From Butyricimonas synergistica DSM 23225 (GTDB lineage: Bacteria > Bacteroidota > Bacteroidia > Bacteroidales > Marinifilaceae): 64,000 nt of DNA. Made by a program: the position numbers and the translations under genes. How positions within the stretch are numbered: position 1 is the stretch's first letter; every line of letters begins with the position of its first letter. Below the pieces are notes generated by a model that was given only the letters and a program-made list of their open reading frames with translations, was not told the DNA's origin and did no database searches. The stretch spans positions 62,202 through 126,201 of the forward strand of contig NZ_KB903369.1 of the NCBI RefSeq assembly GCF_000379665.1, in the 5' to 3' direction. Positions 16,684 through 37,041 of the stretch are shown here, piece by piece.

Positions 16684-19323
16684 ATGTATAAAATGTATTG
16701 TATGAAAAGATGGATTGTGTGTTTTTTGCTTTTGGTGTTTTTAATGCCTTTAGTACATGGAGTTACTGCGAGTGAAAGGAAAAAGAAAGACAAGGGCGAG
16801 CTTCCTGTTGCTAAGGAAACGAAATACGAGAAGTTGATGAAAAAAGCGGGACGGGAATCTGCCACGGGAGAATTCCTTTCCTTGCATAAAATCGAGGGAA
16901 AACTTTACGTGGAACTCCCGTTAAAGTATTGTGGACGTGATCTGTTGATTGCTTCCACGACAGCGGAATCCAGTAATTCCATGTTAGCTATGGTCGGGTA
17001 CAAGATGAATGACCCGTTGCACGTTAAATTTGTCAAGATGGATAGCACGATCGTGCTTCAGATGGTTAATTCCTCGATGGAGAGCGATGAAGAATTGGGA
17101 TTGGCTATCAAACGTAATTATCTGAATTCGTTTTATAAAAAGTATCCGGTGGTAACCTATAATAATGATTCGACATCGGTAGTCTTTGACATGACGGAAA
17201 TGTTCATCGGGGATGAGGAAGCGTTGAAGCCGGTGGAGAGCAATTATAGTATTCTCGGGATAACTTCTCGCTTGAAACCGGGATTCGGAATGTTGAATAA
17301 AATCAAAGCTTTCAGTGACAATATCACCATCGAGTCGTACATGACGTATGATTATAGTATCACCTTTTTTGGCGAGGAACTTGGGTCAGGTGCGTTGACA
17401 ACAAAACTCGTGCGCACGATATTGCTGTTGCCGGAAGACCAAATGAAACCGAGAATTGCAGATTCTCGTATCGGGATATTCCTTACCGGTAAAGAAAATA
17501 TCACGATGACAAAGGATGGAATTGAAAGTTACGCATTGGTCAACCGTTGGCGCTTGGAACCGAAGGATATGAAAGCGTGGGAACGCGGGGAACTGGTGGA
17601 ACCGGTGAAGCCGATCGTGTGGTATATTGATGACGCTTTCCCCGAGTCGTGGAAAGAACCGTTGAAACAATCGGTTTTGATTTGGAATAAGGCGTTTGAA
17701 AAGATTGGTTTTAAAAATGTTATGATCGCTCGTGATTTTCCGAAAGATGATCCGGATTTCGACCCAGATAACCTGAAGTATTCGTGCATCCGCTATGTTC
17801 CGATTTCTGTAGAGAATGCTATGGGACCGTCTTGGGTGGACCCGAGGACCGGAGAGATTATCAACGCCACTGTATTGGTTTATAATGATGTGATTAAATT
17901 GATCAATAGTTGGCGTTTCGTGCAAACGGCGCAGATTGACCCGAGAGTGCGAGGGAAAAAGTTGCCTCAAGAGGTTGTGGATGAATCACTGGCCTATGTG
18001 TTCGCCCACGAGATTGGTCACACGTTAGGCTTGATGCATAACATGGCAGCTTCTAGTGCGTATCCGGTAGATTCGTTACGTTCTGCCACTTTCACGCAGA
18101 AATACGGAACGACGCCTTCTATCATGGATTATGCCCGTTTCAATTATGTGGCTCAACCGGGTGATGAGGGAGTACGCGTGTCGCCTCCGGATATGGGCGT
18201 GTATGACGAGTACGCCATAAAATGGTTGTATTCTCCGATCCCAGGTAATAAGTCCGTGCAGGAAGAGGCTAAAATATTGGAAAGTTGGGTGGATGAAAAA
18301 GCCGGTGATCCGATCTTCCGTTACGGGAAACAGCAAGTGTATTCCCGTTATGACCCGAGTGCGCTTGAAGAAGATTTAGGGGATGATGCTTGCAAAGCGG
18401 GTGATTACGGTATCAAGAACTTGAAATACATCTTGAAAAACTTGAATACTTGGATTAAGGACGACGAATCGACAGCTCATCGCCAGGCATTGTATGCCGA
18501 TCTTTGCAACCAATATGCCCGTTATTTGATGAATGCTTTGGCAAACGTGGGAGGTATTTATTTGACGGAAGTAAAAGATGGTACTCCTGGCGATCGTTGG
18601 AAATCCGTGCCGAGAGAGGTGCAACAAAAATCGTTAAAATGGGTGATTAAACAACTGTGCGAAAGCGATTGGTTGGATGAAAAGGAGGTGATTGACAAAT
18701 TCCCGTTGTCGGTAAATAAATCTCTTGTTTTGAAAACGGTCGTGGGGAAAAAGTTGTTCCAGCTGAATAATGGCGTGTTGCTGTCTGCTCATGTCAGTGC
18801 TCGACCTTATACGTCAGAGGAATATTACAATGACCTTTTCTCCGGTGTTTGGGAACCGACGATCCAAGGGCGTAAATTGACAGTAGGCGATAAATTATTG
18901 CAAAGATTGGCGGTGCAAGAGGTGATCACTTCTGCCGGAAAAATCATGAAAAAGAGTGGGGGTAAGTCTTTGCAGACATTAGGTATGATTTATGCACCTT
19001 CCGTGGATGAAATCGCCCTTCGGGGGTTGGATGCCACCGGTTGGATTAACGAACATTTGCCTGAATTGAGAGCACTTGAGGAAGAATATGGCAAAGGGTA
19101 TGTAGCAGCTTGTATGCAGAAAAAACATCAATTCGGGGATACGGGTGATTATGGTTGGCAGAAAGAAGTGAACGTGGGAGCGATAGACGAATCTGCTGCT
19201 TATTGTGCTGCCATGTTAAAGAAAATAGAGCAGTTGGTAAAAACGAAGGTGTCGACAGCAAACGCTAGCGATAAAATTCATTACCAGTCTATTCTGTTAA
19301 TGATTGAGGCACAGAAGAAATAG
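16684..19323 (+). CDS. Secreted zinc-dependent metalloprotease, system 1
   Basis: An 879-residue exported protease with the DUF5118/DUF5117/DUF4953-type layout found next to SusCD pairs. A signal peptide (MKRWIVCFLLLVFLMPLV, probably starting at Met7, position 16702) is followed by beta-rich N-terminal domains to about residue 290. The catalytic domain carries HEIGHTLGLMH (His442, Glu443, His446, His452) and a Met-turn-like SIMDYA (Met481), a metzincin-type site that looks complete. It starts 6 bases after the preceding lipoprotein gene and ends the operon at a bidirectional terminator. I infer that it cleaves proteins or peptides for the SusCD pair. Confidence 0.92.
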   Translation: MYKMYCMKRWIVCFLLLVFLMPLVHGVTASERKKKDKGELPVAKETKYEKLMKKAGRESATGEFLSLHKIEGKLYVELPLKYCGRDLLIASTTAESSNSMLAMVGYKMNDPLHVKFVKMDSTIVLQMVNSSMESDEELGLAIKRNYLNSFYKKYPVVTYNNDSTSVVFDMTEMFIGDEEALKPVESNYSILGITSRLKPGFGMLNKIKAFSDNITIESYMTYDYSITFFGEELGSGALTTKLVRTILLLPEDQMKPRIADSRIGIFLTGKENITMTKDGIESYALVNRWRLEPKDMKAWERGELVEPVKPIVWYIDDAFPESWKEPLKQSVLIWNKAFEKIGFKNVMIARDFPKDDPDFDPDNLKYSCIRYVPISVENAMGPSWVDPRTGEIINATVLVYNDVIKLINSWRFVQTAQIDPRVRGKKLPQEVVDESLAYVFAHEIGHTLGLMHNMAASSAYPVDSLRSATFTQKYGTTPSIMDYARFNYVAQPGDEGVRVSPPDMGVYDEYAIKWLYSPIPGNKSVQEEAKILESWVDEKAGDPIFRYGKQQVYSRYDPSALEEDLGDDACKAGDYGIKNLKYILKNLNTWIKDDESTAHRQALYADLCNQYARYLMNALANVGGIYLTEVKDGTPGDRWKSVPREVQQKSLKWVIKQLCESDWLDEKEVIDKFPLSVNKSLVLKTVVGKKLFQLNNGVLLSAHVSARPYTSEEYYNDLFSGVWEPTIQGRKLTVGDKLLQRLAVQEVITSAGKIMKKSGGKSLQTLGMIYAPSVDEIALRGLDATGWINEHLPELRALEEEYGKGYVAACMQKKHQFGDTGDYGWQKEVNVGAIDESAAYCAAMLKKIEQLVKTKVSTANASDKIHYQSILLMIEAQKK

Positions 19324-21083: not shown

Positions 21084-21662
21084 ATGGGTTTGTCGGATAC
21101 GGATATTTTAGACTTCATTCGGAAAGATAAAGCAGCTGGAATACAACAATTATTTGTCCGGTATTATCGTCCGTTGGTGTTATTCGCCGATGAATTTCTG
21201 AAAAATCGTTTGGAGGCAGAAGATATCGTGCAGGAGTTGTTTGTGAAACTATGGGAAGATGACTATTTAATTCGGGTAACAGATGTGTCTTTAGCTTCTT
21301 ACCTTTATTCAGCCGTGAGAAATAGGGCGATTTCTTGTCTTCAAAAAAAGGATATATTACGTGGTAGCAAAGAATTGGAAGGAATGGATATTTCCGAGGA
21401 AATGGTTGTGGATATTGACGAGGAACGGATGGAGATTGTGATGCGGGAGGTTGAACGTTTGCCGGATAGAACCCGTCAGGTTGTGGAATGTGTGATGTTG
21501 AGAGGATTGAAATACAAGGAGGCGGCAGAAGAATTGTGTATTTCGATCAATACGGTGAAGTTTTTGTTAAAAGAGGGGACGAAGCGTTTGCGGGAAAAAT
21601 TTGCTTCCGTGAGATCGGATATCCTTTTTCTTTTCTTGCGTAGAGTTCAACGTCGAGAATGA
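21084..21662 (+). CDS. ECF RNA polymerase sigma factor, system 2
   Basis: A 192-residue FecI-like sigma factor. Region 2 is at about 25-60 (LEAEDIVQELFVKLWED), region 4 at about 125-180 (LPDRTRQVVECVMLRGLKYKEAAEEL, helix-turn-helix in CISINTVKFLLKEGTK). It is about 10 residues longer than sigma 1 because of a C-terminal tail (FLRRVQRRE). It heads the second cell-surface signalling operon. A candidate ECF promoter lies in the 151-base gap before its FecR gene. Confidence 0.93.
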   Translation: MGLSDTDILDFIRKDKAAGIQQLFVRYYRPLVLFADEFLKNRLEAEDIVQELFVKLWEDDYLIRVTDVSLASYLYSAVRNRAISCLQKKDILRGSKELEGMDISEEMVVDIDEERMEIVMREVERLPDRTRQVVECVMLRGLKYKEAAEELCISINTVKFLLKEGTKRLREKFASVRSDILFLFLRRVQRRE

Positions 21663-21766: not shown

Positions 21767-21793
21767 ACCCGTTTTTTTGATTTTTGAGTCTTA
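21767..21793 (+). promoter_or_regulatory. Candidate ECF sigma promoter before fecR, system 2
   Basis: ACCC (21767-21770) and GTCTTA (21788-21793) are separated by 17 bases and lie 26 bases (from GTCT) before the ATG at 21814. This matches systems 1 and 3 and shows that the in-frame TTG at 21784 is not the start. Confidence 0.6.
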
Positions 21794-21813
21794 CTGGTAA
21801 AAACAGGATAATA

Positions 21814-22950
21814 ATGAAGTTACCGGAAGAGATACATGAACTAATTCTAGCCAAGTTGGCAGGGGAAATTGACTCGGAAGAAGAGGCAAGATTACATGCT
21901 TGGTTGGAAGAGAACGAGCGGAATCAGGGAGCGTATCAGGAATTCTGTTCCTTGTGGTATGCGGGTAAATGGGGTGCATTGCGGGATAGTGTGAATCGGG
22001 ATAGTGGATGGGAAAAAGTGTTGCGTCGTCGTCGGTATAAATATCGTAATATGTGGTCTCGGGTGGCAGTGGCGGCTGTTGTTGTGTTCGTGATAGGTTT
22101 TGTCGGGTGGAATTGGTCGAAAGACGAGAAAGTACAAGTTACGGAGCATATATCGGTATGGAAAAATGCTGACATAAAATTAATACTTTCCTCGGGGGAG
22201 GAGGTCAATTTGAAGATGGTGGGCAAAGGTGAGATTAATGATGAAGGGATGGTTATTCGTTCCGATTCGGCTTATTTGGACTATACTGGGCAGACAGGAA
22301 TTGTTATGGGATACAACGAGCTGATTGTCCCGAAATGTGGTGAATATCGTTTGCGTTTGCCGGACGGGAGTTCCGTGGTGTTGAACGCCGAGTCTAAGTT
22401 GCGTTTTCCGTTGAATTTCACGGGAGAGAAGCGGGAGGTTTTTCTTGACGGGGAGGCTTGTTTCGAGATCGTGAAGGATTCTTTGAGACCGTTTGTCGTT
22501 CATACGGCTAAAACAGACGTGCGGGTGTTGGGTACTTTGTTCAACGTGTCTGCTTATCCGGAAGAGGTGCGTATGGAAATAACACTGGTGAATGGTGCTG
22601 TCCAAGTGAATGCGGCAGATTATCAGGAACGTTTGAAGCCCAATCAACAATTCGTGTTGGATAATAGTACTTTGCAGGCTCGAGTGCGAGAGGTGGATGC
22701 AAGAACTTATATCGCATGGACGGATGGGTTGTTCCGTTTTGATGCAATGCCTTTGGAACAATTGATGTCGAGATTGAGCCGTTGGTTCGATGTTTCTTAT
22801 GAATTCAAGGATGAAACCTTGAAAAAGATACGCTTCACGGGTGGTTTCCGGAAATACGATGATATAAACGACATCATGAAAATGATTGGGGAAATTACGA
22901 ATGTGTCATTTAAAATGGTTGATAATAAGGTTGTAATAGATAAAAAATAG
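21814..22950 (+). CDS. FecR-type anti-sigma factor, system 2
   Basis: A 378-residue inner-membrane anti-sigma factor. The cytoplasmic N-terminus (MKLPEEIHELILAKLAGEI) is followed by one membrane helix at about 84-101 (VAVAAVVVFVIGFVGW). The periplasmic FecR domain contains GEYRLRLPDGSSVVLNAESK and VLGTLFNVSAYPEE; the C-terminal DUF4974-type domain begins near DGLFRFDAMPLEQLMSRL. The start at 21814 is chosen because an AGGA-like sequence precedes it and the longer frame would begin inside the candidate promoter. It should receive the signal from the receptor at 23042. A hairpin follows 10 bases after the stop codon. Confidence 0.93.
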   Translation: MKLPEEIHELILAKLAGEIDSEEEARLHAWLEENERNQGAYQEFCSLWYAGKWGALRDSVNRDSGWEKVLRRRRYKYRNMWSRVAVAAVVVFVIGFVGWNWSKDEKVQVTEHISVWKNADIKLILSSGEEVNLKMVGKGEINDEGMVIRSDSAYLDYTGQTGIVMGYNELIVPKCGEYRLRLPDGSSVVLNAESKLRFPLNFTGEKREVFLDGEACFEIVKDSLRPFVVHTAKTDVRVLGTLFNVSAYPEEVRMEITLVNGAVQVNAADYQERLKPNQQFVLDNSTLQARVREVDARTYIAWTDGLFRFDAMPLEQLMSRLSRWFDVSYEFKDETLKKIRFTGGFRKYDDINDIMKMIGEITNVSFKMVDNKVVIDKK

Positions 22951-23041: not shown

Positions 23042-26000
23042 ATGAAAAAAAGTCGAAAGTATCGACCTGTCATTCTTAAAAGCAGGTGGAATAAAATTTG
23101 TACGATTATGAAATTGACATTGTTTATGTGTTGTTTTTTCGTGCTTGCCTCTTTTGGAAATAGTTTATCCCAACAGAGGGTGAGCATGAGTTTGGGTAAA
23201 ACTACGATCAAGGAAGCCTTGACAGAATTCCAGCGGATGACGAACATGATCGTGATCTATAGTGATGATAATTTCGAGGTGACTCGTGAAGTGGTAGCTA
23301 ATTTTAAAGATGTGGAATTGGATGTATTTCTCAAGGAACTATTGAAGGGAAGCGGGATGACTTATAAATTGATGGAGGATTATATTTTAATAATGCCATC
23401 TAAAGTTTCTGTTGCGGATTCCTTGAATCAATTGAAGAAATATGTTGTCCGGGGAGTTGTCAAAGACGAGAAGGGTGTGACGATGCCAGGAGTTACTGTT
23501 CTTATCAAAGAAACGAAAGTTGGGGTCGCCACGGATGTAGATGGTAAGTTTGAATTGACGACTACAGATTCAAGTAAATTAGTTCTTGTGTTTTCATTTA
23601 TCGGGATGAAAACGACCGAGGTGAAATATACCGGGCAGAAATTGATAAACGTAACCATGCAAGAAGACGTGGGAGAACTGGAAGATGTGGTGGTGACGGG
23701 ATACGCTAACGTGAGGAAAACAAGTTTTACCGGAAACTCTGTGCAGGTGAACAAGGAGGAGTTGATGCGGGTGTCAAGTCGGAATGTGGTGGATGCCTTG
23801 CAGGTATTTGATCCCTCTTTGCGGGTCATGTTAAATAACGAAATGGGTTCAGACCCGAACACGTTACCCGAGTTCTATATCCGGGGACAATCCGGTATCG
23901 GAACTAAAGAATTGGACAAAACCAATTTGAAGAGTAATCCGAATGCCCCGGTATTTATCCTGGATGGTTTCGAGGTAAGTTTGGAAAAAGTGTACGATAT
24001 GGATATGAACCGGATCGAGAGTATGACCATTCTGAAAGATGCGGCGGCAACGGCAATATACGGGTCTCGGGCTGCGAATGGGGTCATCGTGATCGAAAGT
24101 GTGGCACCGAGGGCGGGGAAATTAAACGTGTCATATAATTTGGTTACTTCATTAACGGCTCCCGATTTATCTGACTATAATCTGATGAATGCACGGGAAA
24201 AGATAGAAGCGGAAGAAGCTGCCAAATTTTATGTTCCGAAAGAGAATGCCTCTTCTTCCGAAATGAATAGGTTGGAACAGGAACGTTTGAGTAAATGGGA
24301 CCGAGTTAATGAGGGGGTGAATACTTACTGGTTGGGACAACCTTTGCAAAATCAGTTTAACCACAAGCATAGCCTTTACATTGACGGGGGAAGTGAAAAT
24401 ATCCGTTTAGGGGTTGATTTGAAATATGATATTCAGGGTGGTGTAATGAAAGAATCCGGACGCGACAAGATGGGGGTTGGGTTTTACGTGGATTACCGGC
24501 TGAAAAAATTACAAGTGAAAAATTATATCACGTACGATGAGGTTAAAGCAAAAGCATCCCCTTATGGTAATTTTAAAGATTATGCTGAGAAATTACCGTA
24601 TGATAAATTTAAGGACGATCAGGGGCATTATGTGCGTCGCTTGCAACAAGAAGACGGGAGGAACGGTTGGCATGCTCCGGCGGGTAATCTGGTAAATCCG
24701 TTATATGAAGCGAAAGAATTGTCTAATTTTAGCAAGAGCACGTATAATGAAATCACGAATAATTTGAGTGTGAACTGGTATTTGCTGGATAACCTACAAA
24801 TAAAAGGACAGTTTACCATATCGAAAAAGAATTCTTTGGCAGAAGACTTTTTAGATCCGTTGTCGGGAGAGTTCTTGACAGATGCCCAATATCCGGGACG
24901 ATTAACACAAAACAAATCGGATGAGATTCGGATTAATACCAATTTGTTTGCGAATTACGTGAATCAGTTCGGGAAAAACAATTTGAACGTGTCCCTCGGG
25001 TTGAACACAGTGGAGCGGAGGTATGAATCTTCTTCGTCTGTTTTTGAGGGATTTCCTTCGGGGCATTTACACTCCCCTCAGTATGCTGCTAAAGAAGCCA
25101 GGAAAGCCTCTTTCTCGGATAATCATACCCGTTTGTTCGGGACTTTTTTTGCGTTGAATTACACGTATGATGATATTTACCTTCTGGATGTTTCTTGTCG
25201 TTTGGATGGTTCTTCGGAGTTCGGTGCCGATAAAAAGTTTGCCCCCTTCTGGTCTGGAGGCGTGGGTTTGAATGTTCACAAGTATGAGTTCATGAAAGAG
25301 AATGACTTATTTAGTACTTTGAGGTTCCGAATTACTTACGGGCAGACCGGAAAAGTGAATTTCCCGGCTTATGCGGCGAAACATTCGTATGATTTGTTGG
25401 AAGATTGGTATGATACGGGTAGTGGGGCGATACTGAAATATTATGGCAACCGGAAATTGAAATGGGAAGTGACGAACGAGTTCGATGTCGGGATGAATGT
25501 TGGTTTGTTGAAAGAACGGATCATTTTGAAGTTTGACTACTATAATAAAGTGACCAAGGATTTGATCACCCCCGTTACGGTTCAAACGTCAACCGGTTTT
25601 ACCAGTTATAACGATAACGTGGGGGAAATCGAGAACCGGGGTGTCGAACTGGACTTGAGAGTGAATGCAATACGGCAGAAAGACCTGTCGGTGGTCGTTT
25701 ACGGGAATCTGGCTCACAACCGGAACAAGATATTGAAAATATCCGAATCGTTGAAGGCGTATAATGCTAGAATTGACGAGGAGTTCGCACAATATGAAGC
25801 CAACGGGGCTTTAAGAAAAGACCAGGCATTTGCAAAGCCTTTGCTGAAATATGTGGAGGGAGGGTCTTTGAATTCCATTTTCGGGATGAAATCTTTGGGA
25901 ATAAACCCGGCAGACGGGGATGAAATATTTGAAAGATCAAACGGAACGATTACCTACACGTGGTTTAGTCCGGATCAACAGATTATCGGAAACAAAGAAC

Positions 26001-26455
26001 CCAAAGTGCAGGGTGCTTTCGGGTTGAACGTACAGTATAAAAACATCTTCTTGTATGCCAGCTTCCTGTATGAATTTGGCGGGGATGTTTACAACGAGAC
26101 CTTGGCAACCAAAATTGAAGGCGTGGACTTGTATAGCACGAATGCAGATCGCCGGGTATTTTCCCAGCGGTGGCAAAAACCGGGAGATAAAGCAAAGTTC
26201 AAATCCATTCAGATTAATAACGTGGCAACCCGGTCGACATCGAGATTCGTGCAGACGAACAACACGATAAAATTCAATTCGTTGACCGTGGGTTATGATT
26301 TCGATGCCGAATGGATGAGAAAGATCGGTTTGGGAATGTTACGGGCACAATTCAGTATGAAGGATATAGCGAACATCAGTAACGTGAGGCAAGAGCGCGG
26401 GTTATCTTATCCTTTTGCCCGGACATTTGATTTCGCTTTAAATATAAGTTTTTAA
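23042..26455 (+). CDS. SusC-like TonB-dependent receptor with STN domain, system 2
   Basis: A 1137-residue outer-membrane transporter. The signal peptide is internal to a long N-terminus (MKLTLFMCCFFVLASFG from about residue 23). The STN domain is at about 45-118 (VSMSLGKTTIKEALTEFQRM), the carboxypeptidase-regulatory-like domain at about 135-215 (VRGVVKDEKGVTMPGVTVLI), then the TonB-box-like DVVVTGYA, the plug (FYIRGQSGIGTKELDKTN; DAAATAIYGSRAANGVIVIE) and the barrel ending in LNISF. The plug contains an insertion around TKELDKTNLKSNPNAP, seen in a subset of the family. The SusD partner starts 12 bases after its stop. By family knowledge it imports ligand and signals through FecR to sigma 2. 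Confidence 0.95.
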   Translation: MKKSRKYRPVILKSRWNKICTIMKLTLFMCCFFVLASFGNSLSQQRVSMSLGKTTIKEALTEFQRMTNMIVIYSDDNFEVTREVVANFKDVELDVFLKELLKGSGMTYKLMEDYILIMPSKVSVADSLNQLKKYVVRGVVKDEKGVTMPGVTVLIKETKVGVATDVDGKFELTTTDSSKLVLVFSFIGMKTTEVKYTGQKLINVTMQEDVGELEDVVVTGYANVRKTSFTGNSVQVNKEELMRVSSRNVVDALQVFDPSLRVMLNNEMGSDPNTLPEFYIRGQSGIGTKELDKTNLKSNPNAPVFILDGFEVSLEKVYDMDMNRIESMTILKDAAATAIYGSRAANGVIVIESVAPRAGKLNVSYNLVTSLTAPDLSDYNLMNAREKIEAEEAAKFYVPKENASSSEMNRLEQERLSKWDRVNEGVNTYWLGQPLQNQFNHKHSLYIDGGSENIRLGVDLKYDIQGGVMKESGRDKMGVGFYVDYRLKKLQVKNYITYDEVKAKASPYGNFKDYAEKLPYDKFKDDQGHYVRRLQQEDGRNGWHAPAGNLVNPLYEAKELSNFSKSTYNEITNNLSVNWYLLDNLQIKGQFTISKKNSLAEDFLDPLSGEFLTDAQYPGRLTQNKSDEIRINTNLFANYVNQFGKNNLNVSLGLNTVERRYESSSSVFEGFPSGHLHSPQYAAKEARKASFSDNHTRLFGTFFALNYTYDDIYLLDVSCRLDGSSEFGADKKFAPFWSGGVGLNVHKYEFMKENDLFSTLRFRITYGQTGKVNFPAYAAKHSYDLLEDWYDTGSGAILKYYGNRKLKWEVTNEFDVGMNVGLLKERIILKFDYYNKVTKDLITPVTVQTSTGFTSYNDNVGEIENRGVELDLRVNAIRQKDLSVVVYGNLAHNRNKILKISESLKAYNARIDEEFAQYEANGALRKDQAFAKPLLKYVEGGSLNSIFGMKSLGINPADGDEIFERSNGTITYTWFSPDQQIIGNKEPKVQGAFGLNVQYKNIFLYASFLYEFGGDVYNETLATKIEGVDLYSTNADRRVFSQRWQKPGDKAKFKSIQINNVATRSTSRFVQTNNTIKFNSLTVGYDFDAEWMRKIGLGMLRAQFSMKDIANISNVRQERGLSYPFARTFDFALNISF

Positions 26456-26467
26456 AAACGGAAAATT

Positions 26468-27931
26468 ATGAAAGAATATCGATATATAGGTATCCTATTT
26501 CTGGCAATCATCGGTTTTACGTCATGTAACAAATGGTTGGAAATAGATCCGAAAGATCAAGTCGTGGATGAAAATCTATTTGAAGATTACCGCGGGTTCA
26601 GAAATGCATTGAATGGAATTTATACTTCTTTGGCAACTTCCGAACTTTACGGTCGGGAATTGAGCTGGGGACTGGCGAGTGTGTTGGGACAGGATTATAT
26701 GGCAGGAGAAGGAGATTACACCTACCAGGCCGCACAACGTTATAATTACGAGTACGCAAGTTTGAAATCAAGACTGGCTACCATGTGGTCAACGGCTTAC
26801 AATATTATAGCCAACTGCAATAAATTGATTGAAGAAACGGAAAAACAGGATGCCTCCTTTTTCTTGTACGGGGAAGAAGAAAAGGGGATCATACTGGGCG
26901 AAGCGTTAGCTGTCCGGGCTTTGCTTCATTTCGACCTGTGTCGCCTATTTGCCCCGGCTCCTGCTCTAAATGACAAGAAAGGCTATATGCCTTATCGGAT
27001 GAATTATTCCGTGGAGATTGCATCGAAGTGGAGTGCCGATCAAGTATTGCAACAAGTGGCGAAAGATTTGCTTCGGGCGAAAGATCTGGTGGCACCCAAT
27101 GACACGATCTTGAATCGTAATATGCTATTAAATACAAGTACCGTGCGTTTGAATGGCAGTGGGGCTGTCGGAGGTACATTTTTCGGTTATCGGGGCGTCC
27201 GGTTGAACTATGTGGCAATAAACGGATTGTTAGCTCGGGTCTATATGTATGCCGGTGATTATACGAATGCAAAACATTATGCCGAATACGTGTACAATAA
27301 GTATGCTCCGGATGAAGATGATAACACGAGTGAAAGATGGGGATTCTCGACGGTAAGTGAGACAACTGCGAAAGGGAAATTTTCCAGTGATATGCTTTTC
27401 GGGCTATCGAATAAGAATCTGGTGACAGATATTGCGAATTTGGTGGCAACCTTTGGAAGACCGTTATATCTGAATGGAATCAAATCTTCTCTCGAGAATA
27501 AAGATCAGGATGATTACAGGTGGAAACTGATATATAGTGACGGTGGGAACGAGAAATGTGTGAAATGGGATGGAACCGGGGTTGCCGGCGAAGACTTGAG
27601 CGATAGGGATTATTCCATTATCCCCGTGATTCGATTGAGCGAGATATTTTACATTCTGACAGAATGCTACGTGAAGGATGGAAATGCAACCGGGGCGGCG
27701 GAAATATTAAACGAAGTGCGTAAACATCGGGGAGAATCAAGAGAGATTGCCGCCGTATCAAATGACGTGTTGGAAGATTTGCATGGAGAGATCAGGAAAG
27801 AATACATGACCGAAGGCCAGACCTTTTTCTTCTATAAACGTTTGAATCAACCTATTCGGGTAGGAATAGGAGTAATTCCCGTGGGAGATAAATTTGTCAT
27901 TCCCACGCCGGATAGTGAAGATGTCTATTAA
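26468..27931 (+). CDS. SusD-like surface lipoprotein, system 2
   Basis: A 487-residue RagB/SusD-family lipoprotein (leader MKEYRYIGILFLAIIGF, lipobox TSC). Family hallmarks are the N-terminal KWLEIDPKDQVVDENLFED, the helical middle with ILGEALAVRALLHFDLCRLF, and a C-terminal part with VIRLSEIFYILTECYV and LHGEIRKEYMTEGQTFFFYK. It should cover the barrel at 23042 and bind the imported compound. It is within the operon, 11 bases before the DUF4843-like lipoprotein gene. Confidence 0.94.
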   Translation: MKEYRYIGILFLAIIGFTSCNKWLEIDPKDQVVDENLFEDYRGFRNALNGIYTSLATSELYGRELSWGLASVLGQDYMAGEGDYTYQAAQRYNYEYASLKSRLATMWSTAYNIIANCNKLIEETEKQDASFFLYGEEEKGIILGEALAVRALLHFDLCRLFAPAPALNDKKGYMPYRMNYSVEIASKWSADQVLQQVAKDLLRAKDLVAPNDTILNRNMLLNTSTVRLNGSGAVGGTFFGYRGVRLNYVAINGLLARVYMYAGDYTNAKHYAEYVYNKYAPDEDDNTSERWGFSTVSETTAKGKFSSDMLFGLSNKNLVTDIANLVATFGRPLYLNGIKSSLENKDQDDYRWKLIYSDGGNEKCVKWDGTGVAGEDLSDRDYSIIPVIRLSEIFYILTECYVKDGNATGAAEILNEVRKHRGESREIAAVSNDVLEDLHGEIRKEYMTEGQTFFFYKRLNQPIRVGIGVIPVGDKFVIPTPDSEDVY

Positions 27932-27942
27932 TTTAAAATCGA

Positions 27943-28662
27943 ATGAATATGAGATACATTATATGGTATATAATTACAGTTCTGTGTTTGACAGCTTGCT
28001 CAAAGGTTGAGGTGGACACCTACCATGCACAGAGGTACGTCCAATTCACCCGGTTGTATACGGACACCGTTACACTTTCATTCCGTTTTTATCCGGGAGT
28101 GACAGAGATACGAGTACCTTTGGAAGTGAAACTGATAGGAGATTTGCTGGATAAGCCTGCCGCAATAAACTTGGTAGTCGATAAAGAAAATTTGACCGCA
28201 ACATCCGATATATACGGTTGGGATGAACAAGTGTTGTTCAAGGCGAATCAATCTAAAGACACGGTGTATCTGATACTGAAAAAGTCAGGAATCCAGGAGG
28301 GGGACCAGAATACTTACACGGTCGTCGTGGATATCGAAAATGGAAATGAGTTATTGATGGGAGAGATAAATTACACCCAGCGTGTATTCCGGGTAAACAA
28401 TGTGCTCAGCCGACCGGATTGGTGGACGGCAGAAGTCGTAAAATCTTACTTGGGTGCTTATTCGGACGTGAAATATCAGACTTTTATCGATCATGTCTAT
28501 ACCGGAGATTTCGAGATGAACGGAGATGCTTTGACCGATGCAGCTAAGGGAAGCCTCCGTGCATACGCTATCCAGTTTAAAAACTTTCTGAAGCGGCAAA
28601 ATCCTCCTATCATGGACGGGAATGTCGAAATGTTATCGACCGTACCTGTGATCGGTTCCTGA
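27943..28662 (+). CDS. DUF4843-like lipoprotein
   Basis: A 239-residue lipoprotein (lipobox LTAC, Cys20 of the longer start; MRYIIWYIITVLCL may be the real beginning). The beta-rich body (VQFTRLYTDTVTLSFRFYPG, IRVPLEVKLIGDLLD) and the C-terminal block (WWTAEVVKSYLGAYSDVKYQ) match the pattern I associate with DUF4843 lipoproteins, which are found after SusD genes. They are taken to be surface accessory proteins; no activity is known. The gene lies between susD and a PKD-like lipoprotein in the same operon. Confidence 0.8.
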   Translation: MNMRYIIWYIITVLCLTACSKVEVDTYHAQRYVQFTRLYTDTVTLSFRFYPGVTEIRVPLEVKLIGDLLDKPAAINLVVDKENLTATSDIYGWDEQVLFKANQSKDTVYLILKKSGIQEGDQNTYTVVVDIENGNELLMGEINYTQRVFRVNNVLSRPDWWTAEVVKSYLGAYSDVKYQTFIDHVYTGDFEMNGDALTDAAKGSLRAYAIQFKNFLKRQNPPIMDGNVEMLSTVPVIGS

Positions 28663-28704: not shown

Positions 28705-30222
28705 ATGAAAATTAGATTAAATATATTCGTGCTGATTTGCGGAATGCTTTTGTCTTCTTGTTTTGATGATAAGGGCAACTACGATTACAAGATTCCGGCA
28801 ACTCAAATATTGGAAATCGATCTGGGGCAAACAGGGACATTTCAAGCAGTCATGGGAGAGTCTATCAAGATTTATCCGAAATTGACTTATAGTAACGAAC
28901 AGGATACCAATCGTTTTGATTTTGAATGGAGAATGAGTGGAGAGTTGTATTCCACGGATCGGGAGCTGGAGTATTTTGGAAAGGCTATCGGTTCCGAATG
29001 GGGTATTTTTAGCGTTATCGACCGGGAAACGGGGATGCGTAAAGACAAGCAATTTGTCATCGCTGTATCCTCTATATTCTCAAATGGTTGGACGATTCTG
29101 ACGAAAGATGGAAATCAATCGCAAATCAGCATGGTAATTAGCAAATACGTGAATGGTGCGTATGAATATACCCCTTATCGGGATGTGTTTTATAATAACG
29201 GCGAGGAAATGGGAAGCGATCCCGTTAAACTGGAAAATCACACGCCCGAGATATTGGTAATACAGCACGGGGGACGAGGAGCTGTCGAATTAAGTGGTAA
29301 TACATTAAGCCCAGTTGTCTTTCTGGAAGACGAGTTTTTGAACGGGCAGGTCCCGGAAAATTTTGTCCCGATAGATGCCTATTATAATACGAACGTAAAC
29401 ATCCTGTTGAGTCAGGACGGACAACTGTATATGCGTTATTCGGGGGTAGCCAACCATGTTGCCCCGTACAATAATGAACCCATGAATATGAATATCGGGG
29501 GAAAGTCTTCCCATGTTTCCCGGTTGATTAAACCTAGAGCCGGTTTCTGGCCGGATCAGATCTTAGTACATGATTCGAAAAATAATCGCTTGTTGTGCCT
29601 TGCGACAAATAGTTATGTCACGGGAGGAAGTTTTCAGGATATTCCGGATGGGGACTATAATTATCCCACCCCGTACACGAAGTTAAGTGACATGGGTACG
29701 ATGGAACTGGTGTACGCCACGGGTACGATGCCTGGGGCTGGCGGGATGGGATATTTTATGGTATTGAAAGATCCGCAGGCACAAACGTACTATTGCCAAC
29801 GATTTAATATCACGCAGAATGCGGCAACCGATGTGTTCACCCTTACCGCCACGCAGGCACGGGTCGGTTTCGAACGAGGAGATGCGGTGCTGACCGAGAA
29901 AAGCCAGTTTGTCTACTTCCCGACTAACGGTTATGTATTATTTACGGCAGGAGCGGCGAACGACCAGCTTTATTTTTACAATTCGACCGCTCCTCTCATT
30001 GCAGCAAAACTGGTGAAAGGATTTGAGGGTATTGAGATAAAGGCTTTGAGAATTGAAAACTTGATTTCCGTGTCGAAAGTAGGCTTGGGGCTTGGTAATG
30101 GTGATTTTGTGTTGATAGACGTTCCGTATAACTTCCACACCAACGTGGTCTATAACGAGTTATGTAGGTTTAACTTTGGGGAAATTGCGGATGTTTGCCA
30201 TAAACCGAATTATTTTCAATAG
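28705..30222 (+). CDS. PKD-like family surface lipoprotein
   Basis: A 505-residue lipoprotein (leader MKIRLNIFVLICGMLL, lipobox SSC). The N-terminal 110 residues form an Ig/PKD-like domain (DLGQTGTFQAVMGESIKIYP; FDFEWRM), and the rest looks like a beta-propeller-type repeat region (GWTILTKDGNQSQISM; NILLSQDGQLYMR; LVYATGTMPGAGGMG). This arrangement is typical of PKD-like family lipoproteins next to SusCD and DUF4843 genes. It probably helps bind the substrate at the cell surface. A 112-base gap containing a hairpin separates it from the first metalloprotease. Confidence 0.82.
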   Translation: MKIRLNIFVLICGMLLSSCFDDKGNYDYKIPATQILEIDLGQTGTFQAVMGESIKIYPKLTYSNEQDTNRFDFEWRMSGELYSTDRELEYFGKAIGSEWGIFSVIDRETGMRKDKQFVIAVSSIFSNGWTILTKDGNQSQISMVISKYVNGAYEYTPYRDVFYNNGEEMGSDPVKLENHTPEILVIQHGGRGAVELSGNTLSPVVFLEDEFLNGQVPENFVPIDAYYNTNVNILLSQDGQLYMRYSGVANHVAPYNNEPMNMNIGGKSSHVSRLIKPRAGFWPDQILVHDSKNNRLLCLATNSYVTGGSFQDIPDGDYNYPTPYTKLSDMGTMELVYATGTMPGAGGMGYFMVLKDPQAQTYYCQRFNITQNAATDVFTLTATQARVGFERGDAVLTEKSQFVYFPTNGYVLFTAGAANDQLYFYNSTAPLIAAKLVKGFEGIEIKALRIENLISVSKVGLGLGNGDFVLIDVPYNFHTNVVYNELCRFNFGEIADVCHKPNYFQ

Positions 30223-30334: not shown

Positions 30335-32959
30335 ATGAAAAACAGATTATTCGTAGTATTGTTATTACTACTCATGCCTTATCTCGTCGAAGCAAGAAAG
30401 AAAAAAGTGGTTGCAGAGATTAAAGAGAAAAAACAAGAGACCCCTTACCAGAAATTTTTTAAAGGGAAAAAATGTGAAACGAAAAAAGGGCTATTCACGC
30501 TCCACAAAATGGATGGGAAAATCTATTTTGAACTTCCGTTGACACTCATGGAGCGGGATATGTTACTAGGCTCTACCGTGAGTGAGATCACCGACAACCA
30601 ATTTGCTAACGTGGGAGAGAAACCGTTTTACCCCCAGCACGTGATATTCACGAAAATGGATTCCATGGTGAATCTATGTTCGGTCAACACGGATTACGTG
30701 TCGGAGGATCCGCTGCTGGCAGAGAGGATCAGGATTAGTAAAAAACCGGCAGTGATGATGCGTTTTCCTATAAAAGTGTATTCGGAAGACAGCACGGCGG
30801 TGGTAATTGATATTACAGATTTTCTGTTGGACGACCGGGAAGGGATGCACCCGTTCTCTCCGTATGCCATTGCTCTAGGCAGAAGATGGATTGAGAAAGA
30901 ATTCAAAAAAAACAATTCGTTTATCACCGACATCAAGGCATTCGAGGATAACGTGAGTGTCCGTTCCTCCTTGGGCTACGTGGTTAGCTTGCGGGATAAG
31001 CAATATTATTATCTCTACAAAGTTCCTTTCACGGCAGTTATGACCCGGAGTTTCATCCTCTTGCCGGAAAAAAGCGAGGCAATGCGTCCTCGTATAGCTG
31101 ATCCTCGCGTTAATATCTTCTATCAATATCAATCGGAATTCACGAATGAACCTCGTGGAATGAAGCCTCTCTACTATGCTAATCGTTGGCGGGTGGAGCC
31201 GAGTGACGAAGTGAAATACCGGAATGGAGAGTTAGTTGAACCCAAAAAGCCGATCGTGTTCTACGTGGATAATGCTTTTCCTGAAAGCTGGCGGAAATAC
31301 ATCAAGGCAGGCATCGAAGAATGGAATGCCGCTTTTGAGCAGATCGGATTTAAAAACGTCGTGCGTGCTGTCGATTTCCCGACGGATGACCCCGAGTTCG
31401 ATCCGGATAACCTGAAATACTCTTGTGTTCGTTATTCTCCCTCGTGGGTGGCGAATGCCATGGGACCCTCGTGGACAGATCCGAGAACGGGCGAAATCGT
31501 GAATGCTTCCGTGTACGTCTATCACAATATGTTGCAACTCGTGCAGAACTGGCGATTCCTCCACACGGCACAGGCGGATGCTGACGTGCGTTCCGTGAAT
31601 ATGCCGGAAGAAATTATCGGGGATTGCATTCGCTACGTCATTGCTCATGAAGTGGGGCATTGTCTCGGTTTCATGCACAATATGTCGGCTTCGGCAGCGA
31701 TCCCGGTAGATTCCTTGCGTTCCCCGTCATTTACTCAAAAACACGGGACAACTTATTCTATCATGGATTATGCTCGTAATAATTATGTGGCACAACCCGG
31801 GGATAAGGAAAGAGGTGTAAAATTAACGCCTCCCCGTTTAGGCTTGTATGATTATTTCTCTGTTAAGTGGTCATATACCCCGCTCTTGGATGCTAAAACA
31901 TCTAAAGAAGAAGTGCCTGTTCTGGATCGTTGGATTAGTGAAAAATCAGGAGACCCGATCTATCGTTACGGGAAACAACAACTGCGTGGGCATCTTGATC
32001 CGACTTCTTTTGAGGAGGACTTGGGAGATGATGCGGTGAAAGCGGCAGGTTACGGGGTAAAAAACCTGAAATACATACTGGAAAATTTGAACACATGGGT
32101 TGGTGAAGAGGATCGGGATTATGCGTTTCGCAAACAAATGTACAACGAGGTATTGTACCAGTATATGCGTTACATAAATCACGTGATTGCCAATATTGGC
32201 GGTATCTATCTATATGAACGCTACGATGGCGACAAATGGCCAGCTTATACCCCGGTTCCGAAAGAACAGCAAAGGCGGGCAACTCGTTTTATTCTGAACG
32301 AATTGAAAGATCTATCCTGGCTGGATAACGAGGAACTGCTCAAAGGTTTTGATCTGCAGGGTAATATATCCACGAATATCGAGGATGCCATCTTCAAAGG
32401 ATTGGTTGGACGCCAACGGTTAGTGGCTATTGCGGCGGATAAAGCCGGAAAGGATGCTTACGGGCGTACTGATCTTTGGGATGACATTGCGGATTTCGTG
32501 TGGAAGCCTACTCGGCAGGGCAAAACTTTAACAAACGTGGAAAAGAAATTACAAATCAGATTACTTGCCCATCTGCTCAATTCTTCCGGTGCCGCAACCA
32601 AGACGATGAGTGGCAGTTCTTTGGCTATTGCTGCGGCGGAAGCGATGGTCGAAATCCCGGAATGCATCAAGGCTCAAAGCCGAGCCGTGTATGGTGTGTT
32701 GCCGGAAAGCGTGATGGGAATCTTCACGAATCGGGAGAGTGAACAACAGGCGATGCGGGACATTGACCCTGCAGAACAGATGGGTTTTGGTTTTTACGTG
32801 AGCGTGGTGGACGTATCCGAACCGATAGAGCATATTTATTTCGAAAAGCTAAAACAGGCTCACGAATTATTGAAGAGCAAAGCGGGTACGGGTTCTGCCG
32901 ACACAAGACGGCATTACCAACTGTTACTTTACAAAATCGGGCAAGCGTTAAACAATTAA
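30335..32959 (+). CDS. Secreted zinc-dependent metalloprotease, system 2 (intact)
   Basis: An 874-residue exported protease of the same family as the genes at 16684 and 53673. The leader is MKNRLFVVLLLLLMPYLVEA. N-terminal DUF5118/DUF5117-type domains are followed by the catalytic domain with HEVGHCLGFMH (His438, Glu439, His442, His448) and the Met-turn-like SIMDYA (Met477). All zinc ligands are present. The lysine-rich start of the mature protein (RKKKVVAEIKEKK) recurs in the paralogues. It lies 9 bases before a paralogue that lost the active site, so the two are co-expressed. It probably digests protein or peptide ligands of system 2. Confidence 0.92.
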   Translation: MKNRLFVVLLLLLMPYLVEARKKKVVAEIKEKKQETPYQKFFKGKKCETKKGLFTLHKMDGKIYFELPLTLMERDMLLGSTVSEITDNQFANVGEKPFYPQHVIFTKMDSMVNLCSVNTDYVSEDPLLAERIRISKKPAVMMRFPIKVYSEDSTAVVIDITDFLLDDREGMHPFSPYAIALGRRWIEKEFKKNNSFITDIKAFEDNVSVRSSLGYVVSLRDKQYYYLYKVPFTAVMTRSFILLPEKSEAMRPRIADPRVNIFYQYQSEFTNEPRGMKPLYYANRWRVEPSDEVKYRNGELVEPKKPIVFYVDNAFPESWRKYIKAGIEEWNAAFEQIGFKNVVRAVDFPTDDPEFDPDNLKYSCVRYSPSWVANAMGPSWTDPRTGEIVNASVYVYHNMLQLVQNWRFLHTAQADADVRSVNMPEEIIGDCIRYVIAHEVGHCLGFMHNMSASAAIPVDSLRSPSFTQKHGTTYSIMDYARNNYVAQPGDKERGVKLTPPRLGLYDYFSVKWSYTPLLDAKTSKEEVPVLDRWISEKSGDPIYRYGKQQLRGHLDPTSFEEDLGDDAVKAAGYGVKNLKYILENLNTWVGEEDRDYAFRKQMYNEVLYQYMRYINHVIANIGGIYLYERYDGDKWPAYTPVPKEQQRRATRFILNELKDLSWLDNEELLKGFDLQGNISTNIEDAIFKGLVGRQRLVAIAADKAGKDAYGRTDLWDDIADFVWKPTRQGKTLTNVEKKLQIRLLAHLLNSSGAATKTMSGSSLAIAAAEAMVEIPECIKAQSRAVYGVLPESVMGIFTNRESEQQAMRDIDPAEQMGFGFYVSVVDVSEPIEHIYFEKLKQAHELLKSKAGTGSADTRRHYQLLLYKIGQALNN

Positions 32960-32968
32960 TGTTGAGGA

Positions 32969-35593
32969 ATGATGAAGAGTTTGATTTATATATTATCTCT
33001 TGTTTTCGTTTTAGGAGGATGGAGTCATGAACTTTCTGCTAAAAAGAGAAAGAAAACAACTGGAACGAAAGTCGAGAAAGAGGTGCTGACCCCTTACGAG
33101 AAATTGTTCAAGGGGAAAAATGTGACCACGACAAAAGGACTGATGACCGTCCACATGATGAACGGTAAAGCCTATGTCGAGTTTCCGGTAGCTTTACTGG
33201 GGAAAGATCTGTTATACTCGACCTCTATCGAGGAGATCAGCGACAACGGCGAAGGTATCGTGGGGCAATTCTCGGATGACGGGTGCGTATTCCGGTTCAC
33301 GAGAATGGATTCCATCCTGCATGCCCGCATGGTAGTCGTGAGTGAGCCGGTGAACGATAGCGGTGATCCGAACGTGATTTCGGCAATCGAGAAATCCAAA
33401 ATGCCGGGAGTCTACATGACGTTGAAGATTTTGGCATATACCCCGGATAGTAGCGCAATGGTGGTCGATATGACACAATTCCTTTTGGATCATATCAGGT
33501 ACGCTAGCCCTTTTCCTGGCATGGCGGGAAATTCCATGTTTGGCTTCATTTACCGGGATCACAAGTTTGATTTGAAAAACTCCCGTTTGAAAAACGTGAA
33601 AGCCTATCCTTCTACCGTGATGGCTACTTGTGAATTGTTCTATAAAGTAGATTATTACGTGTTGGGGACCCCGGGGCGTAAGGATGTACCCGTGACCTTA
33701 ACGGCGAATAAAATGTTGACCGTGTTGCCTGAACTCCCGATGACTCCCCGGATTGCCGATTCCCGTATCGGGGTAGCATTCGTGCATAAGTCAGGGGTTA
33801 ACGGGAAATTCGGGGCGATGGCTCCGGTATATTACACGAAGAGATGGCGGATAGAACCGTCGGATGTGGTTGCTTACGCCCAAGGAAAGTTGGTGGAACC
33901 CAAGAAACCGATCGTGATGTACATGGATACGCTGGTTCCTCAGGTATGGAAAAAATACGTGAAGGAAGGAATCGAAGCATGGAATGTTGCGTTCGAGAAG
34001 ATTGGTTTTAAAAATACGATACAGGTTAGGGAATTCCCGAAAAATGATCCGAACTTCAATGCGAATGACATCGCTCATTCTGTCATTCGCTATTCACCTT
34101 CTTGGTCGTATAATATGCAATACTCTATGTTAGTTGACCCTCGTACGGGCGAAATCTTGAATGCTTCCATTTACTTGCACAATAATGCGATTTCCGTTAT
34201 GCAAAGGGAGCGTGCCATGTACACGATGGCGTCGGACCCTTCCGTGAGATGCGCTCAAATCCCGGATGAATTGGCAGGACGCCTGATTCGTGCGAACGTG
34301 ATGCAGCAAATGGGCTTCAACCTGGGGCTTCTCCCGAATGTTGCGGCTTCCTATGCCTATCCGGTCGATTCGTTGCGTTCCGCTTCGTTTACCCGAAAGA
34401 ATGGAATTGCGGCTTCTGTGATGGACTATATACAATATAACTATGTAGCCCAACCCGAGGATGTGGAAAAAGGAGTCCTGTTGGAGGCGGAAGCGGTAGG
34501 TCCTTACGATCATTATGCCATCCGCTGGCTGTATCAGCCGATAGCCGGGGTGCATGGCGCACGGGAAGAAATACCCGTACTCGATCGTTGGATTGACGAG
34601 AAAGCGGGTGACCCCGTGTATCGCTACACGTTGAGGCAGTATCCCATGTTTGCGCTCGACCCTTCTGCCCTTACCGGGGATTTGGGGAATGATCCGGTTA
34701 AAGCGCTGGAATATTTCAAAAAGAATATAAAGCGTTACCAGGAAAACTTCCGCGAATGGTTCGCCGATAATGACCGGGATATGTGGTATCGGACTCTCTT
34801 GCTAGGACGTATCGGCTTCATCTTTAGAGGAAAATTGGGTAATGTTATCAGTCACGTGGGAGGAATCTACATGAACGAAGTGAAAGTGGGAGATGGCTTG
34901 CCCGCTTATCAGGTTGTCCCTAGGGAAAAGCAAAAAGAAATCGTGAAATATGTCATCGCCCAAGCAAAAGACATCGATTGGCTATACGATGCCGAAATAT
35001 CCAGGGAGTTTGAGGTCGGAACGGACTCAAGGGTACGCCGGAAAGATATTATCGGTTCTCTGTTAGGATGTATTGGGCGGTTAGCCGTATGTGTGGAGAA
35101 AGATCCGAATGCTTATTCACCGGAGGAACTGATAGATGACGTGTATCGGGAAGTGTGGAAACCAACGATAGTCGGACGTTCGTTGACAAAAGAAGATATC
35201 ATGTTGCAGCAAAGCTTGCTCGGGTCAATAGCTATGACTTCGCAAGCCGCATCCCCTGCTGGGACATTTGAAAGTACGAAACAGATAGCTGTCAATGGCG
35301 TATCCATTTCTAGGAACGAGAATGTGGAAGAAATTTATGCCCGTCTAGGTAATGAAGATTTGTCCGAATGGGCGAAATATTCCAAGGAGCCCGATTTTAT
35401 AGAAAAGTGTGGATTCTACCCGATGATGACCAAAATCGTGGCGAATCGTTATTCAAATGCGGCACTGTACTACGAGATGCTCTTGAAGACACGGCGCTTG
35501 ATCCGGGGTGCCGTGGGAAATGCAACCGAGGAAACAAAAGCTCATTACGAGTATATGCTTTATAAAATTGATAAGATGTTGAAAGACAAATAA
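32969..35593 (+). CDS. Catalytically dead metalloprotease paralogue (pseudoprotease)
   Basis: An 874-residue exported protein, the same length as its upstream neighbour and aligned with it along the whole sequence, including PRIADSRIGVAF, WNVAFEKIGFKNTI, YPVDSLRSASFTRKNG and the Met-turn-like SVMDYI. The zinc site is gone: where the neighbour has HEVGHCLGFMH, this protein has QQMGFNLGLLP (residues 446-456). His, Glu, His and the third His are replaced by Gln, Gln, Phe and Pro. The frame is otherwise clean with no stop, so it is kept under selection for something other than proteolysis. Binding the substrate, or pairing with the active protease, are the obvious ideas (inference). It ends system 2. 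Confidence 0.88.
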   Translation: MMKSLIYILSLVFVLGGWSHELSAKKRKKTTGTKVEKEVLTPYEKLFKGKNVTTTKGLMTVHMMNGKAYVEFPVALLGKDLLYSTSIEEISDNGEGIVGQFSDDGCVFRFTRMDSILHARMVVVSEPVNDSGDPNVISAIEKSKMPGVYMTLKILAYTPDSSAMVVDMTQFLLDHIRYASPFPGMAGNSMFGFIYRDHKFDLKNSRLKNVKAYPSTVMATCELFYKVDYYVLGTPGRKDVPVTLTANKMLTVLPELPMTPRIADSRIGVAFVHKSGVNGKFGAMAPVYYTKRWRIEPSDVVAYAQGKLVEPKKPIVMYMDTLVPQVWKKYVKEGIEAWNVAFEKIGFKNTIQVREFPKNDPNFNANDIAHSVIRYSPSWSYNMQYSMLVDPRTGEILNASIYLHNNAISVMQRERAMYTMASDPSVRCAQIPDELAGRLIRANVMQQMGFNLGLLPNVAASYAYPVDSLRSASFTRKNGIAASVMDYIQYNYVAQPEDVEKGVLLEAEAVGPYDHYAIRWLYQPIAGVHGAREEIPVLDRWIDEKAGDPVYRYTLRQYPMFALDPSALTGDLGNDPVKALEYFKKNIKRYQENFREWFADNDRDMWYRTLLLGRIGFIFRGKLGNVISHVGGIYMNEVKVGDGLPAYQVVPREKQKEIVKYVIAQAKDIDWLYDAEISREFEVGTDSRVRRKDIIGSLLGCIGRLAVCVEKDPNAYSPEELIDDVYREVWKPTIVGRSLTKEDIMLQQSLLGSIAMTSQAASPAGTFESTKQIAVNGVSISRNENVEEIYARLGNEDLSEWAKYSKEPDFIEKCGFYPMMTKIVANRYSNAALYYEMLLKTRRLIRGAVGNATEETKAHYEYMLYKIDKMLKDK

Positions 35594-35805: not shown

Positions 35806-36714
35806 ATGGCCTATATAGATTACTATAAGATTTTAGGGGTTGATAAAAGTGCTTCGCGGGATGATATCAAGAAGGCTTTTAAAAAGTTGGCCAGAAAGTA
35901 TCACCCGGACTTGAACCCGAATGACCCGAATGCCAAGCAACGCTTTCAGGAGATAAACGAGGCAAACGAAGTATTGGGCGATCCGGAAAAGCGGAAAAAA
36001 TATGACCAATACGGGGAACACTGGAAACACGCCGATGAATTTGAAGCCCAGAAGCAGCGTCAGCAACAAGGTGGAGGTTTCGCTGGCGGCGGTCAATACT
36101 GGTCGTCGGGAGGCGGATTCTCCGGGATGGGGGATGAGGGCGAATTTTCAGACTTCTTTGAATCCCTGTTCGGTTCTCGTCGGGGCGGAGGACGTTCCGC
36201 TGGATTCCGGGGACAGGACTATAATGCAGAATTACACTTATCGTTCCACGATGCGGCGAAGACGCACAAGCAAGTGTTATCGGTAAACGGTAAAAATATA
36301 CGGATCACCGTTCCGGCAGGAGTGGCTGACGGACAGACCATCAAGTTGAAAGAACAAGGCGCTCCCGGTGTGAATGGCGGACCCAACGGGGATTTGTATA
36401 TCACTTTCGTGATCGCGGAAGACCCGGTATTCAAGCGATTGGGAAATGACCTGTACGTGACGGCTCCTTTGGATCTCTACACGGCAATTCTCGGTGGCGA
36501 ACAAATGGTCGACACGATGGACGGTAAAGTAAAATTGAAAGTAAAACCCGGAACACAAAATGGTGCTAAAGTACGATTGAGGGGTAAAGGTTTTCCCGTG
36601 TACAAGGAAGAAGGCAAATTCGGCGATCTGATCGTGACTTATTCCGTGCAGATTCCGACCAACCTGACGGAGAAACAGAAAGCCTTGTTTAAGGAATTAC
36701 AAAGTCTTAATTAA
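35806..36714 (+). CDS. cbpA: CbpA-type J-domain co-chaperone
   Basis: A 302-residue class B DnaJ-like protein that stimulates the ATPase of DnaK. The J domain is at 4-68 with the essential HPD at 33-35. A Gly/Phe-rich linker (about 85-130, GGGFAGGGQYWSSGGG) follows, then the substrate-binding C-terminal domains at about 133-295 (KQVLSVNGKNIRITVPAGV; VKPGTQNGAKVRLRGKGFP). There is no cysteine-rich zinc finger, which separates it from DnaJ proper. The modulator gene follows after 3 bases, the CbpA-CbpM arrangement known from other bacteria. Confidence 0.93.
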   Translation: MAYIDYYKILGVDKSASRDDIKKAFKKLARKYHPDLNPNDPNAKQRFQEINEANEVLGDPEKRKKYDQYGEHWKHADEFEAQKQRQQQGGGFAGGGQYWSSGGGFSGMGDEGEFSDFFESLFGSRRGGGRSAGFRGQDYNAELHLSFHDAAKTHKQVLSVNGKNIRITVPAGVADGQTIKLKEQGAPGVNGGPNGDLYITFVIAEDPVFKRLGNDLYVTAPLDLYTAILGGEQMVDTMDGKVKLKVKPGTQNGAKVRLRGKGFPVYKEEGKFGDLIVTYSVQIPTNLTEKQKALFKELQSLN

Positions 36715-36717
36715 AAC

Positions 36718-37041
36718 ATGTCAGTTATGCAAGCAGATTTGATAATAGTCAGGGAATATTGCCAGAAAAGCCACGTCGATCCGTCATTTATCATTTCTTT
36801 GGAAGAAGACGGTTTGATTGACATTCAGGTTGTCGATGGGGAGCGTTATTTATCTATTTCTCAATTACGGGATCTGGAGCGGTTTGTACACTGGCATGAA
36901 GATTTATCCGTGAACATCGAGGGCATCGGAGTCATCCACGAGTTGATGGGACGTATGCACGATATGCAGCAGGAACTCGACCAATTACGTCGGGAGGTGC
37001 GGGTGTTTCGTTCGCATTATCTCAACTATTTGGATGAGTAA
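36718..37041 (+). CDS. cbpM: CbpM-like chaperone modulator
   Basis: A 107-residue protein in the MerR-like fold of CbpM, which binds the J domain of CbpA and restrains it. It begins ADLIIVREYCQKSHVDPSFI with the typical VREYC, continues through GLIDIQVVDGERYLSISQLRDL, and ends in a short coiled coil (MQQELDQLRREVRVF). The start ATG at 36718 is followed by another at 36727. Translation is probably coupled to cbpA. Assignment rests on position and pattern together. Confidence 0.85.
   Translation: MSVMQADLIIVREYCQKSHVDPSFIISLEEDGLIDIQVVDGERYLSISQLRDLERFVHWHEDLSVNIEGIGVIHELMGRMHDMQQELDQLRREVRVFRSHYLNYLDE

Follow-up and report, generated by a model that had tools for sequence, protein, structure and literature searches.

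Two neighbouring paralogous genes at the end of an importer operon of Butyricimonas synergistica, one with an intact and one with a degenerate Met-zincin motif, probably encode the catalytic and pseudo-catalytic subunits of one obligate heteromeric peptidase, a reading to which we assign a rough probability of 0.55. The genes lie in the 64-kb stretch of DNA analysed here (hereafter the window), and are termed A (intact HExxHxxxxxH) and P (degenerate motif), as are the corresponding members of the family elsewhere. As judged from sequence comparison, P lacks a zinc site, is maintained by purifying selection, always lies adjacent to A and shares the history of A. We infer, in addition, a contact between A and P, a P protein free of zinc, a role of P in substrate handling, a periplasmic or surface location and a peptide substrate. 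A and P would thus be two halves of one exported peptidase working with a SusCD-type importer, in which A would act as the catalytic zinc subunit and P as a paralogous subunit that has kept its fold and assembly surfaces and given up catalysis. P may complete or shape the substrate chamber of A, stabilise A or hold the peptide.

The gene pair and its operon

A and P were located at 30335..32959 and 32969..35593 on the forward strand, and the ORF ends leave a 9-base gap between them (32960..32968). Both encode 874 aa with the architecture DUF5118-DUF5117-DUF4953 according to the ORFs and to Pfam matches above the curated cut-offs, and the positions and lengths given in an earlier, sequence-only reading were borne out. 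The equal length is a coincidence, because homologous degenerate copies vary from 857 to 883 aa (822 aa in a copy with an in-frame stop). The two proteins are 38% identical in alignment. The zinc site of A, HEVGHCLGFMH (residues 438-448; 31646..31678, forward strand), is aligned with QQMGFNLGLLP in P (residues 446-456; 34304..34336, forward strand), with the replacements H to Q, E to Q, H to F and H to P; P was examined for the HExxHxxGxxH of catalytic Met-zincins, and this motif was absent. The Gly at the end of the helix (LGL) is kept in P, and the Met turn SIMDY of A (segment SIMDYAR, 31757..31777, forward strand) is represented by SVMDY (segment SVMDYI, 34415..34432, forward strand). The alignment thus agrees with the earlier statement that all three zinc-binding His and the catalytic Glu are changed while a Met-turn-like motif remains. 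P was matched by Pfam to DUF4953, DUF5117 and DUF5118 alone, with scores of 254.5 (PF16313), 104.7 (PF17148) and 50.9 bits (PF17162) against curated cut-offs of 24.2, 27 and 27, which rules out P as a member of M16. Further intact members of the family are present in the window at 16684..19323 and 53673..56315.

The operon, which lies entirely on the forward strand, begins with an ECF sigma factor (21084..21662; Pfam Sigma70_r2/r4) and a FecR-type anti-sigma factor (21784..22950; Pfam FecR and FecR_C). These are followed by a SusC/RagA-type TonB-dependent outer-membrane transporter of 1137 aa (23042..26455; assigned from sequence features and its position before SusD), a SusD/RagB-type lipoprotein (26468..27931; Pfam SusD-like_3 and SusD_RagB, and SusD structures by sequence), a DUF4843 lipoprotein (27943..28662; Pfam PF16132) and a PKD-like family lipoprotein, PKD_2 (28705..30222; Pfam PF16407), with A and P as the last genes. 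The order SusC-SusD-DUF4843-PKD_2 ahead of A and P is repeated in other genomes. At some pair loci (L038, L093 and L098), three S9 genes (DPP-IV type, prolyl-oligopeptidase) are inserted between PKD_2 and A, and a further S9 gene follows P; because S9 peptidase genes flank the pair at these loci, the cassette looks like one for peptide uptake and degradation. Directly after the protease operon, a DnaJ-type co-chaperone and a small MerR_2 protein form a CbpA/CbpM-like pair (35806-37041). Farther on, a 1112-aa protein (38075-41413) has apparent permease-like membrane segments, a middle part without a Pfam match and a C-terminal Golvesin_C domain.

Degenerate copies in nine genomes

All PF16313 genes of nine genomes, fragments left out, were classed (195 genes), and this full census was used in place of pattern-picked loci to check the pairing of degenerate copies for collection bias. 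A changed motif was detected in 41 of 111 tandem members versus 0 of 84 singletons; the remaining 70 tandem members and every singleton (84/84) carried the intact HExxHxxxxxH, which was accordingly intact in 154 of 154 A-type members. The 49 tandem arrays were of the types AP (33), AAA (5), AA (4), AAP (3), APA (2), APAPA (1) and PA (1). An intact copy was present in every array, and no two degenerate copies were neighbours. None of the 41 degenerate copies in the nine genomes was a solitary P away from any A. Junctions within the tandems are tight, with a median gap of 11 bases and five overlaps among 62 junctions.

Both His of the helix were lost in 38 of the 41 degenerate copies, and the Met of the Met turn was present in 24 of the 41. 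The other three keep HExxH and differ in the third ligand alone, reading HExxHxxGxxN or HExxHxxGxxD (C1_1674369 and C13_59397, from the window's genome, G000, and G005C4_212889). Their zinc sites are possibly altered rather than dead, and these copies were not counted as surely dead, which leaves 38 that are clearly free of a zinc site.

By gene counts, the association of motif loss with tandem arrangement is well beyond chance (Fisher test, 2e-12, with descent ignored). When lineages were weighted by branch length, the confinement of losses to tandem lineages gave p of about 0.01-0.07 for about five to seven losses and about 0.1 for four losses; on this count, with p of about 0.01-0.1, it is weak evidence. 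About 53 PF16313 genes, including 11 fully degenerate copies, are present in the 4.8-Mb genome of the window and 45 in G005, and 1-5 per genome were found among the matches listed for a phylum-wide sample. The importer-linked Met-zincins are greatly expanded in part of the genus Butyricimonas, gut bacteria in which dozens of nutrient-uptake operons end with such a peptidase gene, in many cases followed directly by a dead copy. Since 84 singletons and intact tandem copies exist, a dead partner is not a general requirement of the family, which counts against a heteromer.

Descent and shared history of A and P

In the tree, P proteins of the window type fall into a single clade with 26 members (support 0.998), which spans Butyricimonas, Sanguibacteroides and MAGs labelled Rikenellaceae, Alistipes and Bacteroides, labels that may be wrong for single contigs. 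A search of this clade for orthologues with HExxH at the same position, as proposed with the earlier reading, found none among the 26, and the motif was never regained. The other P groups are separate from the window type. They comprise an older Butyricimonas group with mirrored tips (15 P and 15 A, with 2 more of each), the third genes in one class of triple, the middle genes in a different class, and a group from Prevotella, Hoylesella and Cryptobacteroides in which P precedes A, the opposite of the Butyricimonas order (loci L141, L142, L143, L146 and L270, from these three genera and from G098). Parsimony gave seven changes of the motif, and the tree suggests that the catalytic motif was lost about five separate times, always inside tandem arrays. 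The earlier reading had described a single pseudoprotease beside its paralogue; that case is real, but it is one of many.

The subtrees of A and P mirror each other. In AAP and AAA triples, the three positions yield three matching subtrees, and the clade of third copies mixes intact and degenerate members. Because this clade is mixed and all-intact AA and AAA arrays exist, the tandem arrangement is independent of motif loss. We tentatively propose a course of events across the Bacteroidales in which importer-linked Met-zincins first became tandem paralogues, catalysis was then lost about five times, and each obligate active/pseudo pair, working as a heteromer, was then multiplied as a cassette.

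Distance matrices were compared at twelve loci with both importer and protease genes (SusC partial in four). The correlation was 0.95 between A and P, 0.91-0.97 among SusC, SusD, DUF4843 and PKD_2, and 0.59-0.70 between the importer genes and A or P; with one locus per close pair, the values were 0.91, 0.74-0.91 and 0.01-0.40, respectively. Since the correlation of A with P is high and that of either with the importer genes is low, the operon consists of two modules of different history, of which A and P form one. The shared history of A and P fits a complex, and fits joint movement of neighbouring genes as well; that cassette co-movement would also produce a shared distance matrix is counted against the heteromer. 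The earlier suggestion that P is a partner of the active enzyme gains support from the obligate adjacency and the shared history, both of them indirect signs of a physical association. The other roles it had named, substrate capture and inhibition, gain no such support and are taken up below as less probable alternatives.

Predicted structures

AlphaFold2 models of P and A were built from 17-row alignments. The P model was ordered (pLDDT 78.6, pTM 0.78), and the A model was somewhat poorer (pLDDT 73.6, pTM 0.72). Neither predicted fold matched a PDB entry at E <= 1e-3; weak fold matches were to M1 aminopeptidases for both A and P, and to snake-venom metalloproteinases for A. A sequence search of the PDB found no solved structure of the PF16313/DUF5117/DUF5118 family. 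No A-P fusion protein was found, the longest open frames among the phylum matches listed being at most 1044 aa; this counts against the heteromer. A disulfide between the fixed Cys221 of P and Cys364 of A was considered and dropped, because singleton A proteins carry Cys364 just as often.

Selection on P and its possible roles

The dN/dS of close orthologous P pairs was 0.063-0.113 and that of their A partners 0.040-0.086 (NG86), ratios that are rough because several dS values exceed 1. The ratio of P to A entropy was 3.0 in the zinc helix, 3.35 between the helix and the Met turn, 1.8 in the stretch before the helix and 1.1-1.55 in the other domains; P is relaxed chiefly around the zinc site that it has lost, and the loss is local. 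Reading frames are open in all copies of the 26-member clade but one, the P of G003 (L096:4885-7353), in which a single in-frame TAG stands near codon 48 of an otherwise conserved sequence and may be either a real stop or a sequencing error. The earlier expectation of open frames in relatives thus held with this one exception. Taken with the low dN/dS and the uniform lack of HExxH in the clade, the nearly universal open frames uphold its claim that selection keeps a non-catalytic role.

That role might be exercised by P as a separate peptide-binding or chaperone-like protein, which would capture imported peptides and hand them to A with no stable complex. P does keep other conserved segments of the family, such as DPRTGEI, which precedes the zinc helix, and DSLRS..FT, which follows it (D390, R392, G394-I396 and D467-S471 invariant in 17 of 17), and the protease genes stand in the same operons as the importer genes. 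Relaxation in P, however, is strongest in the zinc helix and the Met-turn segment, which form the floor of the cleft, and in the distance matrices P is less well correlated with the importer genes than A is, which makes this explanation unlikely.

A P that inhibits A or regulates its assembly, keeping it off until export or the arrival of substrate, is less probable still. Co-expression and paralogy would suit such a role, and regulation of active relatives by inactive homologues is known (PMC11266112); yet P is as big and multi-domain as A, has no feature resembling a pro-domain or an inhibitor loop, and occurs in AAP, APA and APAPA arrays, which are unlike a 1:1 design of enzyme and inhibitor. 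It is equally doubtful that P has acquired an unrelated function, or its own activity independent of zinc, and lies beside A only through operon descent. Residues fixed specifically in P (K96 to F101, S211 to C221 and Y474 to P482) and its divergence at about 1.5 times the rate of A (17 matched pairs) could be read in this way, but an unlinked function predicts some solitary survivors, and the census held none. Decay of P as a duplicate heading for loss, to which the lost catalytic residues and the TAG near the start of the G003 copy might point, is highly improbable in view of the dN/dS, the open frames and a single P clade whose members come from several genera and from MAGs of other groups.

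The heteromeric peptidase is the reading we prefer, and the points counted for it are the census pattern, the all-intact tandems, the approximately five losses, the mirrored subtrees, the A-P correlation of 0.95, the low dN/dS, the local rise in the entropy ratio, the tight junctions, the ordered P model and the S9 genes.

Comparison with known systems

The principle of an active and a dead subunit is already known. A search for papers under the names DUF4953 and DUF5117 and under wider topics, with subscription journals mostly outside its reach, found none on the family; as far as could be checked, neither the Met-zincin family nor its obligate pairing and repeated loss has been described. 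Common gut bacteria have a large set of uncharacterised importer-linked peptidases, for which the heteromer would define a testable working unit: the pair rather than the single protein. The series AA, AAA, AAP, APA, AP and PA would offer a natural record in which the order of steps to a pseudoenzyme partnership is readable.

Both A and P have the three-domain architecture of the Met-zincin family PF16313 (DUF4953 with DUF5117 and DUF5118) and its setting in SusCD-linked operons; the zinc ligands and Glu kept by the A-type members are all missing from P. The SusC/SusD module of the operon is of the same kind as the RagAB/SusCD importers of peptides or glycans (PMC11817032, PMC7782687), and unlike these the operon adds a protease-pair module with its own history. 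Pseudopeptidases of M12, M13, M14 and M41 (ADAMs, Gone early, CPX and FtsHi) have kept the fold, lost catalytic residues and taken up roles in protein interaction (PMC11266112). They are mostly eukaryotic and show no obligate tandem with an active paralogue, whereas P is always in tandem.

In principle, the heteromer would work like the M16B pairs (MPP alpha/beta, SPH2681/SPH2682, TTHA1264/TTHA1265 and AlbE/AlbF), which consist of homologous active and inactive subunits, with the inactive half required for function and the bacterial genes often neighbours (PMC11266112, PMC12731061). A and P are likewise homologous live and dead copies encoded side by side, and their complex would complete the parallel. 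M16B is an unrelated family with an HxxEH motif and a clam-shell fold, whereas the A/P family has HExxHxxGxxH in proteins of about 870 aa and, unlike M16B, shows losses that recur within one genus. If our reading is true, A and P would represent a second, independent metallopeptidase family in which, as in M16B-type pairs, one subunit is live and the other dead.
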